From contig NZ_JDTH01000002.1 of NCBI RefSeq assembly GCF_000710615.1, positions 612,082 to 676,081 of the forward strand: 64,000 bases of DNA, read 5' to 3'. A model generated the notes under the pieces. The model did not search any database. It was not told where the DNA came from and saw only the letters and a list, made by a program, of their open reading frames with translations. Shown here one piece after another: positions 6,334 through 26,904 of this stretch. Source of the DNA: Haladaptatus cibarius D43. GTDB lineage: Archaea; Halobacteriota; Halobacteria; Halobacteriales; Haladaptataceae. The translations under genes were made by a program, and so were the position numbers. Numbering within the stretch: position 1 is the stretch's first letter; each line of letters begins with the position of its first letter.

Positions 6334-6726
6334 ATGGCCAAGGAGACGGAGAGAACTGTAGTAAAAACGTACATTCCCAAATATCAGAAAGAAGAATGGC
6401 AGTCGCATGCCGACGAACTCGACATGAGCCAAAGTGAGTTCGTCAGAGCCATGGTGCAGGCCGGAAGACGCGGTTTCGATATGAACCCCGTGCAGGCCCC
6501 TGAGGAGGGGTCGAACCCCGGGGGAGACGAGTTGAAAACACGCCTGCTCGAAACCCTCGCGGCAGAGGAAAATTTGTCGTGGGACGAACTGGTCGAACGA
6601 CTCGCCGGAGATTTCGAAGACAGACTCGAAGACGTGCTGAACGAACTACAGGCTTCGAACCGAGTGCAGTACAGCGGACGCCACGGAGGATATACACTCG
6701 TCGGAGGTACCGATGGCCGCCCGTAG
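6334..6726 (+). CDS. DUF5805 family protein, ribbon-helix-helix-like
   Basis: A 130-residue protein. The N-terminal part (RTVVKTYIPKYQKEEW, then DMSQSEFVRAMVQAG, residues about 7-48) has the strand-helix-helix pattern of ribbon-helix-helix DNA-binding proteins and matches what I know as DUF5805. The C-terminal part (residues 65-125) looks like a small winged helix (LLETLAAEENLSWDELVERL, ending GRHGGYTLVGG). The 3' end overlaps the tyrosine recombinase start by 14 bases. I know this pair as common in haloarchaea, so DUF5805 may help recruit or regulate the recombinase (inference). Confidence 0.82.
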   Translation: MAKETERTVVKTYIPKYQKEEWQSHADELDMSQSEFVRAMVQAGRRGFDMNPVQAPEEGSNPGGDELKTRLLETLAAEENLSWDELVERLAGDFEDRLEDVLNELQASNRVQYSGRHGGYTLVGGTDGRP

Positions 6727-7771
6727 CCCGGACACGCCGAATCCCGACGACCCAGTTGGATATTTTTTGCAAGATTTGCTTTACCACGGGAAAAGCGAAC
6801 GAACCCGAAACGCCTACAAGCGCGTTCTACGGCGTTTCGAGACGTTTCTCACCGACCGCGACGAGAATCCCTCGGGGCGGAGTGTCGCGCCCGAAGCGGC
6901 GACACAGCGCGACTGCATGGCGTGGATTCACACTCTCCGCGGTGACCACGCCGAAAGTACCATCGCCACCTACGCCTCCTATCTGCACCGGTTTTACGGC
7001 TACATGACCCAAGTCGGCGCGTTCGAATCGAATCCGATGGCGCTCGTGGTCGAAGAGATGCACGAGTCAATCGACAAAGACCCAATGCGGCGCGAAATTT
7101 CGGTGATGGGCATGCAAAAGTTTGTTTCGGCGGTGACACATCCACTGGAACGTGCTGTTTTCTTCACTCTGTTGAAAACCGGGATGCGTGTCGGCGAGGT
7201 GAGCAACCTCGACCTCCGGGACGTTAACCTCGCCGACGAAGACGCGCGTGCCGCCTACTCGCTCGGCGAACGCCCGCAACTCGACGGCCGCCCCGACTCG
7301 ATTTTCGTCGCCTCGGATGCGGTCAGGGGCCAGGTCATCAACGGCGAGGAACGAACCGCCTCGAACAAACGAAAACGCGAAACCATCGTTCCGGTGGACG
7401 GTGAACTCCGACGAGTGTTGGTTCGATGGCTTGCAATTCGACCGGACGCCCAATCACCTGCCGAGCCGCTGTTCGTCAGTACGAGCGGCGACTGGGGAAC
7501 GCGACTCACGCCGAAAATGATTCGGAACATCGTGGAGCGCCACGCCCGCGAACGCGGATGGTATCGAACCGGCGGCGGTGCGGAAGAGAACGTCACACCC
7601 CACTACTTCCGGCATTTTTTCACGACGCATCTCCGCGACCGAACCGGCGACCGCGGTATCGTCAAATATCTCCGCGGCGACGTGGCGAGTGACATCATCG
7701 ACACTTACACGCACAACTGGGGCGACCGCGTGCGGGAGGTGTACGAGGCAAACATCTACACGCTGTCATAA
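6713..7771 (+). CDS. tyrosine-type recombinase/integrase (Xer-like)
   Basis: 352 residues. An N-terminal SAM-like core-binding domain (about 14-110) is followed by the catalytic domain. Visible catalytic residues are Arg159 (KTGMRVGEVSNL), His297 and Arg300 in HYFRHFF, and Tyr332 in DTYTHNW. The usual LGH before the tyrosine is LRGD here, so the second histidine is replaced. It is coupled to DUF5805 upstream. No att repeats, tRNA target or other phage genes are visible, so it is more likely a resident chromosomal recombinase than part of a recent provirus. Confidence 0.88.
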   Translation: MAARSPDTPNPDDPVGYFLQDLLYHGKSERTRNAYKRVLRRFETFLTDRDENPSGRSVAPEAATQRDCMAWIHTLRGDHAESTIATYASYLHRFYGYMTQVGAFESNPMALVVEEMHESIDKDPMRREISVMGMQKFVSAVTHPLERAVFFTLLKTGMRVGEVSNLDLRDVNLADEDARAAYSLGERPQLDGRPDSIFVASDAVRGQVINGEERTASNKRKRETIVPVDGELRRVLVRWLAIRPDAQSPAEPLFVSTSGDWGTRLTPKMIRNIVERHARERGWYRTGGGAEENVTPHYFRHFFTTHLRDRTGDRGIVKYLRGDVASDIIDTYTHNWGDRVREVYEANIYTLS

Positions 7772-13142: not shown

Positions 13143-14294
13143 ATGAACCGAGTCGCAGTCATCGGCGCGTCGATGACGGAGTTCGGCAACCGCGACGGGT
13201 GGATACGCGACCTGCTCGCAGAGGCCGGGCAGGCCTGCCTCGACGACGCTTCTGTCTCGCCGCTGGATATAGAACACCTCTACGTCTCGAACATGGCGAG
13301 CGGCGAGTTCGAGGGCCAGACGGGGATTCCGAACGCATTGGCACACGATTTGGGCGCGCTTCCGGCGTACACCCAGCGAGTAGACCAAACGAGCGCGAGC
13401 GGCGGAGCAGGAATTTATTCGTCGTGGCAATCCGTCGCGTCGGGGGCGAGCAACATGACCCTGCTCGTCGGCGGTGAGAAGATGACCCACAAAACGACTG
13501 CCGAGGCGACGGACGTAATCGCCTCGCTGACCCACCCCGTAGAGTACAAACACGGCGTCACGCTCCCGAGTTTTGCGGGATTGACCGCCCGCAGGTACCT
13601 CCACGAGTACGACGCGCCGCGCGAGAGTTTGGCGAAAGTAGCCGTGAAGAATCACAAAAATGGGGTGGACAACCCTCATGCCCAGTTCCGCAAGGAAGTC
13701 GATTTGGAGACGGTGATGGACTCGCCAATCGTGGCCGACCCGCTGCGACTGTACGACTTCTGCCCGATTACGGACGGGAGCGCGGCGCTCCTGTTCTGTC
13801 CCGAATCGAAGGCGAAGGAGTACACCGACGACTACACCGTAATTTCGGGCATCGCGGGCGCAACCGACACCCACGTCGTGCATCAGCGCGCCGACCCCAC
13901 CGTGATGGGCGCGGCCTACGAAAGCAGTGAACTCGCCTATCAGATGGCCGAACGCGACCCGGACGACGTGGACGTGGCGGAACTCCACGACATGTTCACC
14001 ATCCTCGAATTTCTCCAGAGCGAGGCGGTCGGCTTCTTCGACCAAGGCGAAGGCTGGAAAGCCGTCGAGGAGGGCGTCACCGACCGCGAGGGAGAACTCC
14101 CCATCAACACCTCCGGCGGCCTGAAATCGAAGGGCCACCCGCTCGGCGCGAGCGGGGTCGCACAGGCCTACGAACTGCACCAACAACTGCTCGGCGAGGC
14201 CGGAAAGCGACAGGTCGATGCGGAAGTCGCGCTGGCCTGCAACGTCGGCGGGTTTGGAAATTGTGTCACGACGACGATTATGGAGGCGCGATAA
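13143..14294 (+). CDS. haloarchaeal-type beta-ketothiolase, catalytic subunit
   Basis: 383 residues of the thiolase/SCP2 family, which condenses or cleaves acyl-CoAs. The position that is normally the acyl-accepting cysteine reads TSASGGAG, so Ser84 stands in for Cys. Conserved histidines are in AELHDMF and KGHPLGASG. Haloferax mediterranei beta-ketothiolases for PHBV synthesis (PhaA/BktB) are reported to use a Ser-His-His triad and to need a small OB-fold subunit. The next gene, two bases downstream, is exactly such a protein. A role in polyhydroxyalkanoate or acyl-CoA metabolism is likely; no phaE/phaC is visible here. Confidence 0.88.
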   Translation: MNRVAVIGASMTEFGNRDGWIRDLLAEAGQACLDDASVSPLDIEHLYVSNMASGEFEGQTGIPNALAHDLGALPAYTQRVDQTSASGGAGIYSSWQSVASGASNMTLLVGGEKMTHKTTAEATDVIASLTHPVEYKHGVTLPSFAGLTARRYLHEYDAPRESLAKVAVKNHKNGVDNPHAQFRKEVDLETVMDSPIVADPLRLYDFCPITDGSAALLFCPESKAKEYTDDYTVISGIAGATDTHVVHQRADPTVMGAAYESSELAYQMAERDPDDVDVAELHDMFTILEFLQSEAVGFFDQGEGWKAVEEGVTDREGELPINTSGGLKSKGHPLGASGVAQAYELHQQLLGEAGKRQVDAEVALACNVGGFGNCVTTTIMEAR

Positions 14295-14296
14295 CC

Positions 14297-14665
14297 GTGC
14301 CGCTCGAAGCACATCGCTGTCCGAACGGCCACCTTACGATTCCGGGCCACCCGCGCTGTCCGGAGTGTGCGGAACCGCAGAACGGGACTGTCGATTTGAC
14401 CGACAGAACCGCCGAGGTCGTGACGTGGACGACCAGCACCGCGACACCGCCGGGGGTTCGGCAGCCTAATCACCTCGCAATCGTGGAGTTCGATGTCGAT
14501 GGCGAGCCGGTGCGGACAATCGGGCAAGTGACAAGTGGTGACGAGGTAGAGATTGGCGACGAAGTCCGGGCAGTGTATGCCGAGGAACTGCGTAACCTGG
14601 ATGCGGGAATTCGGGAAAGAGAGAGTCAGGACTGGGACGGCTATCAATTCGAGCCTCTGAAGTGA
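14297..14665 (+). CDS. Zn-ribbon/OB-fold (DUF35-type) thiolase partner subunit
   Basis: About 122 residues starting at a GTG two bases after the thiolase stop; the upstream ATG at 14261 would overlap the thiolase. The N-terminal rubredoxin-like zinc ribbon is CPNGHLTIPGHPRCPEC, followed by an OB-fold (residues about 55-105, AIVEFDVDGEPVRTIGQVT). DUF35 proteins pair with SCP2/thiolase enzymes and are required for activity in haloarchaeal beta-ketothiolases (family knowledge). The tight spacing supports one operon and complex. Confidence 0.85.
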   Translation: MPLEAHRCPNGHLTIPGHPRCPECAEPQNGTVDLTDRTAEVVTWTTSTATPPGVRQPNHLAIVEFDVDGEPVRTIGQVTSGDEVEIGDEVRAVYAEELRNLDAGIRERESQDWDGYQFEPLK

Positions 14666-15204
14666 ATCAGCGGGAGTAAGTTTTTGTCTGATTAGCGGTT
14701 TCTGATCTCTAGTTTAATTCGGTGTAGCTAGCTGTTTCCGACTCCAATCATACCGCCACCGCACCCGCCCACACGCCTCCCCCAGCCGATTCCTTCGCTC
14801 CTTTCAGTCGCTCAGTCATCCCTTACACGCTGTCAGCACAGACCTTCGGACGTGAAGTCCTCAGGCCGGTTCCAGCGCGCGCCATGTGGCCAATTCGAGG
14901 GATTCGAACGGACACAAACCTCATGGCGCGCGTGTTCGCAAGCCCGAGGACTCGTCGTCCGAGGGCTTGCTGATTATTCGTGCGAGGGACGAGTGCGCGA
15001 ACGAAGTGAGTGCATGAGTCGGTTGGGGAGGCGTGTGGCTGTCGCGGTGCGGTTGCAGTTGTGTGTTGTCGTGATTTGCAATCGACTTGGTCGGAAAAAT
15101 TTCTCGATGAGTGATGAATTTGCCGTAGTAGTTTCAGTGGAGTCAGCCACGACTAGCATTGTAAAAGATACAGCACGAGAAACGAACAGGCAATCAAAGA
15201 GAAT
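14666..15204. other. long intergenic region containing an inverted-repeat element
   Basis: About 540 bases without a coding gene. The centre (14754-15057) is a structured inverted-repeat element described separately. The flanks (14666-14750 and 15060-15204) are AT-richer and show nothing I recognise. Confidence 0.6.
14754..15057. repeat. inverted-repeat element with nested hairpins (MITE-like or structured RNA)
   Basis: The ends form an imperfect inverted repeat of about 60 bases. Its core is a perfect 14-base match: 14769-14782 (CCACACGCCTCCCC) against 15025-15038. Inside lie an 11-base perfect inverted repeat (14876-14886 with 14922-14932, CGCGCGCCATG) and a hairpin at about 14938-14970 with stem GCAAGCCC/GGGCTTGC, an opposed GA/GA internal loop and an inner GGAC/GTCC stem. 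The loop of the 11-base repeat contains ATTCGAAC, like a tRNA T-loop on the minus strand, but no full tRNA folds. It could be a non-autonomous mobile element or a non-coding RNA. Confidence 0.55.
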
Positions 15205-15921
15205 CTACTTCTCAGAATCGTCCGAATCGCCAGCACTCGCGCCACCTTCGGAGTCATCCTCCGAGTCGTCCTCGGAACCATCGCCCTCATCCAAATCTAC
15301 CTCGGAATCACCGTTGCCACGAGCACCCAGTTCGTCCCGAATCGAGCGCAGTTCGGCATCGACATCGACCTGCGGTTTTTCCTCCTCCACTTCGATGTCC
15401 TCGCCGTCTTCGCGTTCTTCGTCCGCCTCGTCCGCCTTTGTCGTTTCACGACTGCTATTGGCCTGCTCTCTTCCGGCAGAAATCTCTCCTTTGATGTCGT
15501 CGCTGAGTCGGCGGGCGTCTTCGAGGATTCGGCGCGCGCCCGGCTCCTGCGGCAATCCGCCCTCGGTGAGCGCACCTTCGACATCTTCGAGCGTGGATTG
15601 AAGGCGGTCTAAGGTGGCCTGACTTGCACGCCCGGCCCGGGAACTCAGTTCGGAGCGCGCTTCGCTGGTCGAATCGTATTCGGGGTCAACGAGGCGGATG
15701 ATTTGCTGGAGCGCCTTGAGCGCGCGGATGTTCGACTCCAACATGGTGATGAGCGTCGGGAGGGCGTATTCGCTGGTGAACGAGAGCATCTCGCGGGGCG
15801 TCGGCGGACGCGGGAGTCCGAGTGGGCCGCGAGGAGGGCGTTGGAGTTCGGTCTGCAAATCGCGCAGCATCGTCTCCAACTCCTCGATTCGGTCTTCGAG
15901 GTCGTCCGGGTCATCTGGCAT
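15205..15921 (-). CDS. acidic coiled-coil protein (DUF7547-like)
   Basis: 238 residues. The N-terminal coiled coil (DLEDRIEELETMLRDLQTEL) is followed by a Pro/Arg linker and a helical core (REMLSFTSEYALPTLITML, then IRALKALQQIIRLVD). The C-terminus is a long highly acidic tail rich in Asp, Glu and Ser, probably disordered. The layout resembles haloarchaeal DUF7547 proteins, but I cannot confirm the family. No membrane segment or signal is seen. Its stop lies near the inverted-repeat element, and the promoter region is shared with the downstream end of the Eis-like gene. Confidence 0.75.
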   Translation of the reverse strand: MPDDPDDLEDRIEELETMLRDLQTELQRPPRGPLGLPRPPTPREMLSFTSEYALPTLITMLESNIRALKALQQIIRLVDPEYDSTSEARSELSSRAGRASQATLDRLQSTLEDVEGALTEGGLPQEPGARRILEDARRLSDDIKGEISAGREQANSSRETTKADEADEEREDGEDIEVEEEKPQVDVDAELRSIRDELGARGNGDSEVDLDEGDGSEDDSEDDSEGGASAGDSDDSEK

Positions 15922-25689: not shown

Positions 25690-26904
25690 ATGGGTTCATT
25701 CGAGTTCGTCCGCGAACACTCTCCGTACAAACATCGGGAGGCATTGCTTGACGATTACACGCCCGATACGCTGGTCGGGCGTGATTCTGAGTTGGCCGAG
25801 TATCACGGTGCGCTCCAGCCCGCCATCTACGGCGAGCAACCGGACAACATCTTTCTCTACGGCAAGGCCGGTGTTGGGAAAACGGCGGCGACGCGATTCC
25901 TACTCGATAAACTTGAACATAACGCGGGCGACTACGATGACTTGGAAATCTTCACGGAACTCGTCAACTGCGACGGCTTGAACTCCAGCTATCGCGTGGC
26001 CAGCCATCTCGTGAACACGCTCCGTGACCCGGCCAACCGCATCAGCGAAACCGGCTATTCGCGGTCGCAGGTGTACGAACTGATGTGGGACGAACTCGAC
26101 ACCCACGGCGGCATCATCCTGTTGGTGCTGGACGAAATCGACCATCTCAAAGACGACAGCATTCTCTACCAACTCTCCCGTGCGCGCGAGAACGAAAACC
26201 TCACCGAGGCCCGAATCGGCCTCATCGGCATCAGCAACGACCTCACTTTCCGAGACGGTCTGTCACCGAAAGTTCGCTCGTCGCTCTGTGAACGCTCGAT
26301 TTCGTTTTCGACCTACGACGCGAACGAACTTCGCGCCGTTCTCGACCAACGTCGAGAAGTCGCGTTCAAAGACGACGTGCTGACGGACGACGTGATTCCG
26401 CTGTGCGCCGCGTTCGGTGCGCAGGAATCCGGTGACGCGCGAAAAGCACTCGATTTGCTTCTGAAAGCTGGCGACCTCGCCCGCGAGGAAAACGCCGCAC
26501 GCGTTTCGGAGGAGCACGTTCGCCGGGGCCGGGACTTGCTCGAACGCGAGCAGGTCGCCCGCGGAATCGCCGACCTGAACGACCACGAACGACTGGTCGT
26601 CTACGCGCTCGCAACGCTCGAAGCCGAAAGCGAAACGCCCGCTCGGTCGCGCGAAATCTACTCCCGGTATAAAGCGCTTTCAGACGCCGCCCAACGCGAA
26701 GCCCTCACTGCGCGCTGGCTCCGCGAGCATCTCGACGACCTCTCGATGCTCGGTATCCTCTCCGTCTCCGAAATCAACGAAGGCTCCGCGGGCGGGAAGT
26801 ACCGCGAATATGCCCTCCAGCAAGACCTCGCGGTCGTCCTCGACGCCTTGGAGGAAACGCTCGAAGCGATGGGCGTTCACACGAGCGTCAAAGGCTACGT
26901 CTGA
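25690..26904 (+). CDS. orc1: Orc1/Cdc6 family replication initiator
   Basis: 404 residues, the normal archaeal Orc1/Cdc6 length. The AAA+ core has Walker A YGKAGVGKTA (about 57-66) and Walker B LLVLDEID (about 144-151), and RSSLCERSISF covers the arginine-finger/sensor region. The C-terminal winged helix (about 310-395) binds DNA. The protein binds ORB elements and loads the MCM helicase. It lies next to the ORB array and is probably the initiator of this origin; haloarchaea carry several paralogues, each usually matched to its own ORB type. Confidence 0.95.
   Translation: MGSFEFVREHSPYKHREALLDDYTPDTLVGRDSELAEYHGALQPAIYGEQPDNIFLYGKAGVGKTAATRFLLDKLEHNAGDYDDLEIFTELVNCDGLNSSYRVASHLVNTLRDPANRISETGYSRSQVYELMWDELDTHGGIILLVLDEIDHLKDDSILYQLSRARENENLTEARIGLIGISNDLTFRDGLSPKVRSSLCERSISFSTYDANELRAVLDQRREVAFKDDVLTDDVIPLCAAFGAQESGDARKALDLLLKAGDLAREENAARVSEEHVRRGRDLLEREQVARGIADLNDHERLVVYALATLEAESETPARSREIYSRYKALSDAAQREALTARWLREHLDDLSMLGILSVSEINEGSAGGKYREYALQQDLAVVLDALEETLEAMGVHTSVKGYV

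Follow-up and report, generated by a model that had tools for sequence, protein, structure and literature searches.

A non-coding repeat built as an inverted doublet is dispersed between the genes of Haladaptatus cibarius D43 and its relatives, and on balance it is most likely a non-autonomous mobile DNA, or the descendant of one, that is recognised as folded single-stranded DNA. The copy from which it is described here lies in a window of 64,000 nucleotides of contig NZ_JDTH01000002.1, between positions 14723 and 15087 of that stretch. The evidence comes from the number and spread of the copies, from their conserved pairing, from the handedness of a GA/GA hairpin, and from comparison of the same sites in other species.

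Results

The repeat in the window

The initial annotation had placed an inverted-repeat element of about 300 bases at 14754-15057; the element itself was recovered, but its extent had been drawn too narrowly. In 71 aligned arms from copies in the own genome, conserved sequence begins sharply at the points equivalent to 14723 and 15087, giving a length of 365 bp (Table 1). The arm profile was built from 38 fetched regions of the own genome, and 71 of 72 arm hits entered the end profile, the one without an anchor being left out. Within these limits the matching ends described earlier are found at 14769-14782 and 15025-15038 (14 nt, 100% complementary), and the 11-base perfect pair CGCGCGCCATG/CATGGCGCGCG sits inside an inner pair, 14876-14889 with 14919-14932, that is 93% complementary. 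The hairpin with opposed mismatches was likewise borne out, as GA at 14946-14947 faces GA at 14961-14962. The T-loop-like ATTCGAAC (14902-14909) is unconserved among copies. Compared by eye with the exact arm-box pattern, neither arm of the window copy fits, the left having one extra C and the right one changed base. The match of this copy to the covariance model R1 holds by construction, because R1 was built partly from it.

Table 1. Parts of the repeat and an adjoining end-like sequence, in positions of the window
Feature	Position	Strand	Basis
Whole element, imperfect inverted doublet, 365 bp	14723..15087	.	Conserved-sequence boundary in 71 arms; about 65 related genome loci
Left arm or terminal inverted repeat, variant of the arm box	14723..14815	+	Arm profile
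Cloverleaf core scored by covariance model R1	14816..14992	.	Model match
Left hairpin P2, imperfect, TC/TC internal loop on + (GA/GA on -)	14839..14869	-	Sequence; type counts over copies
Central hairpin P3, GCGCGCGCCATG/CATGGCGCGCG stem, variable loop with ATTCGAAC	14875..14932	.	Complementarity of the inner pair; covariation
Right hairpin P4, CAAGCCC-GA-GGAC-TCGTC-GTCC-GA-GGGCTTG, tandem GA/GA	14939..14969	+	Sequence; type counts
Right arm or terminal inverted repeat	14993..15087	-	Arm profile
Second, outer end-like sequence, oriented as the right arm	15128..15160	-	Counterpart in H. litoreus and G004

The outer end-like sequence lies about 40 bases outside the right end and may be an older right end or a nested copy; tandem ends of the same kind occur at loci L043, L045 and L056. 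Convergent genes flank the window copy: at 14261-14665 (+) one for a protein with an OB-fold ChsH2_C domain, and at 15205-15921 (-) one for a DUF7547 protein. An open reading frame of 249 aa (14852-15601, +) that starts inside the element is probably spurious. Elsewhere in the window are a tyrosine-recombinase-like gene (Phage_integrase; 6713-7771, +) and an Orc1/Cdc6 gene (25690-26904, +).

Copies in the own genome

The element is not a single-copy sequence. Searched with 351 bases, the own genome (3.93 Mb in 13 contigs) yielded at least 112 DNA matches, the query itself among them; the stronger ones have about 70-87% identity, and many match on both strands, as expected of a palindrome. Model R1 gave at least 123 strand matches at E<=0.01, which were merged by hand into about 65 loci that match the core. 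The 26 own copies with both ends paired span 300-513 bp. No near-identical cores were found among the own copies, the best other core being about 85% identical at most; whole-core gene conversion within the own genome was rejected on the same observation, and there has been no recent burst of the element there.

The copies are intergenic: of 49 own cores examined, none lies wholly within a predicted gene, and those of L031 and L149 overlap one at the edge. By gene calls from a simple codon score, the contexts of these 49 copies are -+ 15, -- 13, +- 10 and ++ 9, with one side undetermined in the remaining 2. A terminator between convergent genes, the position that the window copy occupies, was considered and rejected, since the 49 copies show no such preference, and the T-rich flank was set aside as a TATA box because its profile is T/G-rich with few A. 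An extra module like GGTCTTCGTGAGCGACG adjoins the core in L033, L034, L041, L057 and L068, is absent beside others, and also accompanies the H. litoreus copy at the window site.

Folding and covariation

Folded as RNA, the region 14740-15070 reaches -192.8 kcal/mol on the + strand against -126.05 +/- 4.88 kcal/mol in dinucleotide shuffles (z -13.7), and the - strand gives z -10.5; none of 100 shuffles folded as well on either strand. An alignment of 11 own cores over 181 columns describes a cloverleaf, a 14-bp closing stem with three hairpins, in which 90.8% of cells are paired. It holds 66 double-change cells against 23.0 +/- 4.0 after shuffling, a number that none of 500 shuffles reached, and sliding the partners leaves 10-14. 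The energy model folds the window copy as a rod. We nevertheless prefer the cloverleaf, because the left and right side hairpins vary freely in sequence among copies while each keeps its pairing, so that in many copies they cannot pair together.

The same covariation is found in genomes outside model building. With one row per locus, 55 loci of H. litoreus and G004 have 311 double-change cells against 102.2 +/- 9.4, and 31 loci of other species and genera have 154 against 45.4 +/- 5.9, with 0 of 500 shuffles reaching either value; covariance-model alignments, it should be said, lean toward the model's structure, and strand counts take the better-scoring strand of each locus. When both strands were counted, four of five covariation measures beat all shuffles; pairs with any two-sided change numbered 28 against 25.7 +/- 2.0, which 85 of 500 shuffles reached. 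A lone copy with unconserved pairing is therefore not what is seen, because the copies are dispersed and their pairing covaries.

The GA/GA hairpin and the two strands

A simple hairpin finder, applied to the halves of the 49 own cores, picked out a hairpin in 35 of the 3' halves (20 GA/GA, 8 without internal loop, 1 TC/TC) and in 18 of the 5' halves (7 TC/TC, 5 without internal loop). In 40 H. litoreus cores the counts were 10/24 for GA/GA and 11/22 for TC/TC. Two halves depart from this handedness, a 3' half of an own core that has TC/TC and a 5' half of an H. litoreus core that has GA/GA. A GA/GA hairpin thus stands 3' of the centre on each strand, with rare exceptions, and the tandem GA mismatch persists where other internal loops are rarer.

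Summed over 137 loci, the side hairpins read on the GA strand hold 123 G-T against 46 A-C pairs (73 against 17 in the right hairpin; 50 against 29 in the left, read on the other strand), and the wobble pairs show no per-copy strand bias at these loci (simulated P 0.25). Pairing of the GA hairpin is the same on sense (0.958) and antisense (0.953) strands, and is independent of the direction of neighbouring genes (convergent 0.952, divergent 0.931). The element has no match to any curated Rfam family. The initial annotation's suggestion of a folded RNA is not supported by the Rfam comparison, the per-copy wobble counts or the pairing on sense and antisense strands, and its suggestion of a tRNA-derived ancestor falls because ATTCGAAC is central in only one of the 49 own cores, a set that includes the window locus; ARAGORN found no tRNA in the window. 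The element is not a tRNA relic and, judged from its sequence, gives no sign of acting as RNA.

The same sites in related species

Copy load within the genus, counted with the core model at E<=0.001, runs from 0 in G006, which has two partial matches to the plain DNA of the element, to at least 117 strand matches in the own genome; H. litoreus has at least 120 strand matches to R1, a load much like that of the own genome. At the window site the element is present in H. litoreus and in G004, where the left arm is damaged, and absent in six of the eight other genomes of the genus (G001, G002, G005, G006, G007 and G008). The flanking alignments stand about 660 bp apart in the own genome and 153-252 bp apart in the six genomes without the element.

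Of 40 H. litoreus loci fetched and read by hand, 33 have at least one flank in common with an own element locus. A further 24 own loci were sought in that species, of which 22 were placed and 17 of these fetched; five of the 17 showed no arm (L037, L053, L054, L137 and L150). No clean empty site between the close species was seen among five further sites read out. The H. litoreus sites of L037, L142 and L045 retain end-like remnants, that of L054 is without a clear remnant, and that of L053 has been replaced by other sequence.

Positions are stable and cores turn over. In 41 comparisons of orthologous cores (30 with H. litoreus, 11 with G004), made only where both flanks could be placed, 12 cores in the same orientation exceed the 99th percentile of unrelated copies (0.784), 2 do so inverted (0.93 versus 0.68 and 0.83 versus 0.65), and the remaining 27 do not exceed it, despite flanks of about 89% identity. 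The 27 comparisons under the identity cut were left out of a test of pair changes; the 14 retained contain 26 two-sided compensated pairs against 4.3 +/- 1.8 in shuffles. Among 688 pairs at shared sites, one-sided changes break the pair in 63 cases and keep it in 38. With a looser cut, 27 comparisons contain 47 two-sided compensated pairs (24 isolated, 23 clustered) against 10.2 +/- 3.0. In our reading, selection, copy exchange and hairpin-templated change together shaped these pairs, three causes that the data do not separate. The cores of L065 and L178, from different species, differ by the inversion of a hairpin loop on a stem that is still paired, as by a template switch.

In G002, G005, G007 and G008, where few loci were compared, similarity reached up to 88% over 233 bases, within G005. 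Several element hits on contig C1 of G004 are repeated exactly 551,849 bases further along (for example 1457113/2008962 and 1792900/2344749), as though the genome or its assembly contained a large duplication.

Ends and a possible mobiliser

Like a miniature inverted-repeat transposable element (MITE), as which it had been proposed, the element ends in inverted repeats and is dispersed in several copies that carry no transposase gene. Dispersed intergenic copies, inverted ends and a contrast of presence and absence between species agree with that proposal; a target-site duplication and an autonomous partner were not found. For 26 pairs of flanks, no duplication of 2-12 bases was detected at the mapped boundary or by a flexible search. 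The longest shared flank repeat averaged 4.81 bases against 4.52 in mismatched pairs, and 2 of the 26 pairs shared a repeat of at least 7 bases, against 3.5% expected.

A scan of the own genome gave 92 end-like hits and no autonomous insertion sequence that shares the element's ends. The sole inward pair of ends 0.8-3 kb apart, at C1:886154/888779 (2.6 kb), was rejected as such a partner: it encloses genes for an arginase-family protein, an IF5A-like protein and a PIN ribonuclease, and no transposase. In the same region (own contig C1, 886-889 kb), element pieces at L040 1190-1540 and 3890-4100 are apparently half-units placed back to back. An IS605/RAYT mobiliser was also rejected, as the Y1 transposase profile (PF01797) has no match in the own genome and one in G006, itself without a core-model match.

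A possible half-unit across the order

Under strict filters, matches to the core model occur in 22 of 243 genomes and 5 of 77 genera of the order, and 17 of the 22 belong to the family of the window species. The arm box CTCCCCANCCGAYTCNNTC, with zero mismatches, occurs in 100 of the 243 genomes and 39 of the 77 genera (control matches were zero in the rows shown). In G208, G042, G185 and G239, one genome from each of four other families, none of 30 loci, the first places listed, has an inverted partner within 600 bases downstream of the box. With all boxes near the centre counted, 0 of 32 have a partner downstream and 5 have one upstream (4 in G239), so other arrangements exist in those genomes. 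A downstream inverted partner accompanies 23 of 33 own boxes and 19 of 24 H. litoreus boxes, the Haladaptatus loci having been picked by similarity to the doublet; the own genome therefore also has partnerless boxes. With the downstream partner common in Haladaptatus and absent at the loci sampled in the four other genomes, the Haladaptatus element has the look of an older half-unit, often solo elsewhere, that was doubled in inverted orientation.

A box-spacer-box arrangement is seen in 23 of the 30 other-family loci, 16 with a hairpin below -5 kcal/mol, some of the spacers being cut short by the search pattern. Of these 30 loci (L263-L292), 13 have convergent neighbours and 3 divergent ones by the same codon-score gene calls, unlike the doublets. 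No transposase was seen among 10 proteins, one of these proteins without any family, encoded beside 8 such loci.

Discussion

The preferred explanation would work as follows. Each half of the element consists of an arm, a hairpin of free sequence, often with a GA/GA loop, and half of the central stem. Because two such halves face each other, a single strand can form either a rod or a cloverleaf of three hairpins, and this folded single-stranded DNA would be recognised by an enzyme supplied in trans, as proposed for bacterial REPINs. Mobility, like its single-strand DNA route, is inferred. At the window site, the contrast between species would reflect insertion rather than loss, with entry in the ancestor that the window species shares with H. 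litoreus and G004. The inverted cores may have arisen by recombination between the arms, and hairpin-templated correction would be one cause of the two-sided changes. Analysed in this way, the element is best read as a REPIN- or SMR-like mobile repeat that would be very old and now largely immobile in its own genome. The absence of a target duplication, an autonomous partner, an own-genome Y1 transposase, a recent burst and a clean insertion at the five further sites all speak against this explanation, as do the flanks shared with H. litoreus at 33 of 40 loci; the excess of compensated pairs would fit a host function too.

A more specific version, which we put forward tentatively and consider somewhat doubtful as a whole, starts from a half-unit widespread in haloarchaea. 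In the Haladaptatus family it would have been doubled head to head into the cloverleaf and mobilised, now or formerly, in the form of folded single-stranded DNA by some enzyme that is not a Y1/RAYT transposase, with the GA/GA hairpin 3' of the centre as the recognised mark on each strand. The element would then be an independently evolved archaeal counterpart of REP/REPIN.

A host-functional DNA structure accounts for part of the same data. The copies would act in place as cruciform or hairpin sites, with candidate roles in recombination, replication pausing or the binding of nucleoid or repair proteins, and mobility would be only a distant origin. Such a function would suit the shared flanks in H. 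litoreus, the two-sided compensated pairs at shared sites (26 against 4.3 +/- 1.8) and the spread of the arm box to 100 of the order's 243 genomes. Yet G006 does without any core-model match and six of eight relatives do without the window copy, one-sided changes break pairs more often than they preserve them, and 27 of 41 orthologous cores resemble their counterparts no more than the 99% level of unrelated copies. We therefore regard this reading as unlikely.

The strong fold on both strands might instead belong to a structured RNA or to a 3'-end signal read from either side. The excess of G-T over A-C in the GA-strand hairpin would suit it, and so would the convergent setting of the other-family arm-box loci (13 of 30, against 3 of 30 divergent). 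Against this stand the missing Rfam match, the lack of a convergent preference in the 49 own copies, the equal pairing of the GA hairpin in sense and antisense and in convergent and divergent settings, and wobbles without per-copy strand bias, so that the probability of an RNA role is small.

An ordinary MITE of a DDE-type insertion sequence, its target duplication eroded and its parent lost, would explain inverted ends, an intergenic position, the lack of a gene and a patchy distribution. The duplication has left no trace in 26 pairs, however, no partner with the element's ends was found in the own genome, and the conserved internal cloverleaf exceeds what DDE-type MITEs need; we find this origin very improbable. 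Chance inverted repeats in GC-rich DNA, for which no supporting point was found, are refuted by the dispersed copies, the shuffle z of -13.7 and the covariation in genomes outside model building, and their probability is negligible.

Returning to the folded mobile repeat, several known systems resemble it. In a literature search by titles and abstract openings, with most subscription journals outside it, we recognised no published description of this repeat. REPINs are inverted REP doublets associated with RAYT, and the legend of Figure S11 describes a stable hairpin and an alternative 'clover' fold (PMC3116915). Set beside the REPIN features given there, both are intergenic, non-coding inverted doublets of a hairpin unit, and here doublets (in Haladaptatus) coexist with partnerless units (in other families and some in the own genome); the Haladaptatus element differs in its length of 300-513 bp, its central third hairpin, its GA/GA loops and the lack of a detected Y1 protein in the own genome. 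The short mobile repeats (SMR) of Haloquadratum, described in PMC3119063 as about 80-110 bp long, commonly >95% identical and with some insertions specific to a strain, share with it inverted ends and, in that description, no target duplication and no transposase. They are set apart by the greater length of the Haladaptatus family, by its best other own core of about 85% at most and by the cloverleaf fold. PATEs of Haloquadratum, presented in the same source as IS605-type derivatives without inverted ends, are alike in their palindromes, lack of target duplication and heterogeneous copies, whereas inverted ends are present in the Haladaptatus element. Insertion sequences of Wolbachia, according to PMC3004938, invert by recombination between terminal inverted repeats; in both cases an element inverts in place between inverted ends, and here it is a non-coding repeat whose cores are also replaced. 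The element resembles REPINs, SMRs and PATEs in part, and each of these definitions contains features that it lacks.

For annotators of haloarchaeal genomes, the 249-aa open reading frame that begins within this non-coding element is a warning. The loci shared between species form a natural record of DNA hairpins evolving in place, by two-sided changes, core inversion and core replacement. Should half-unit and doublet belong to a single lineage, the haloarchaea would hold an archaeal parallel to REP/REPIN, and, as the doublet and the solo forms occur in different families, the step between them would be datable and testable.
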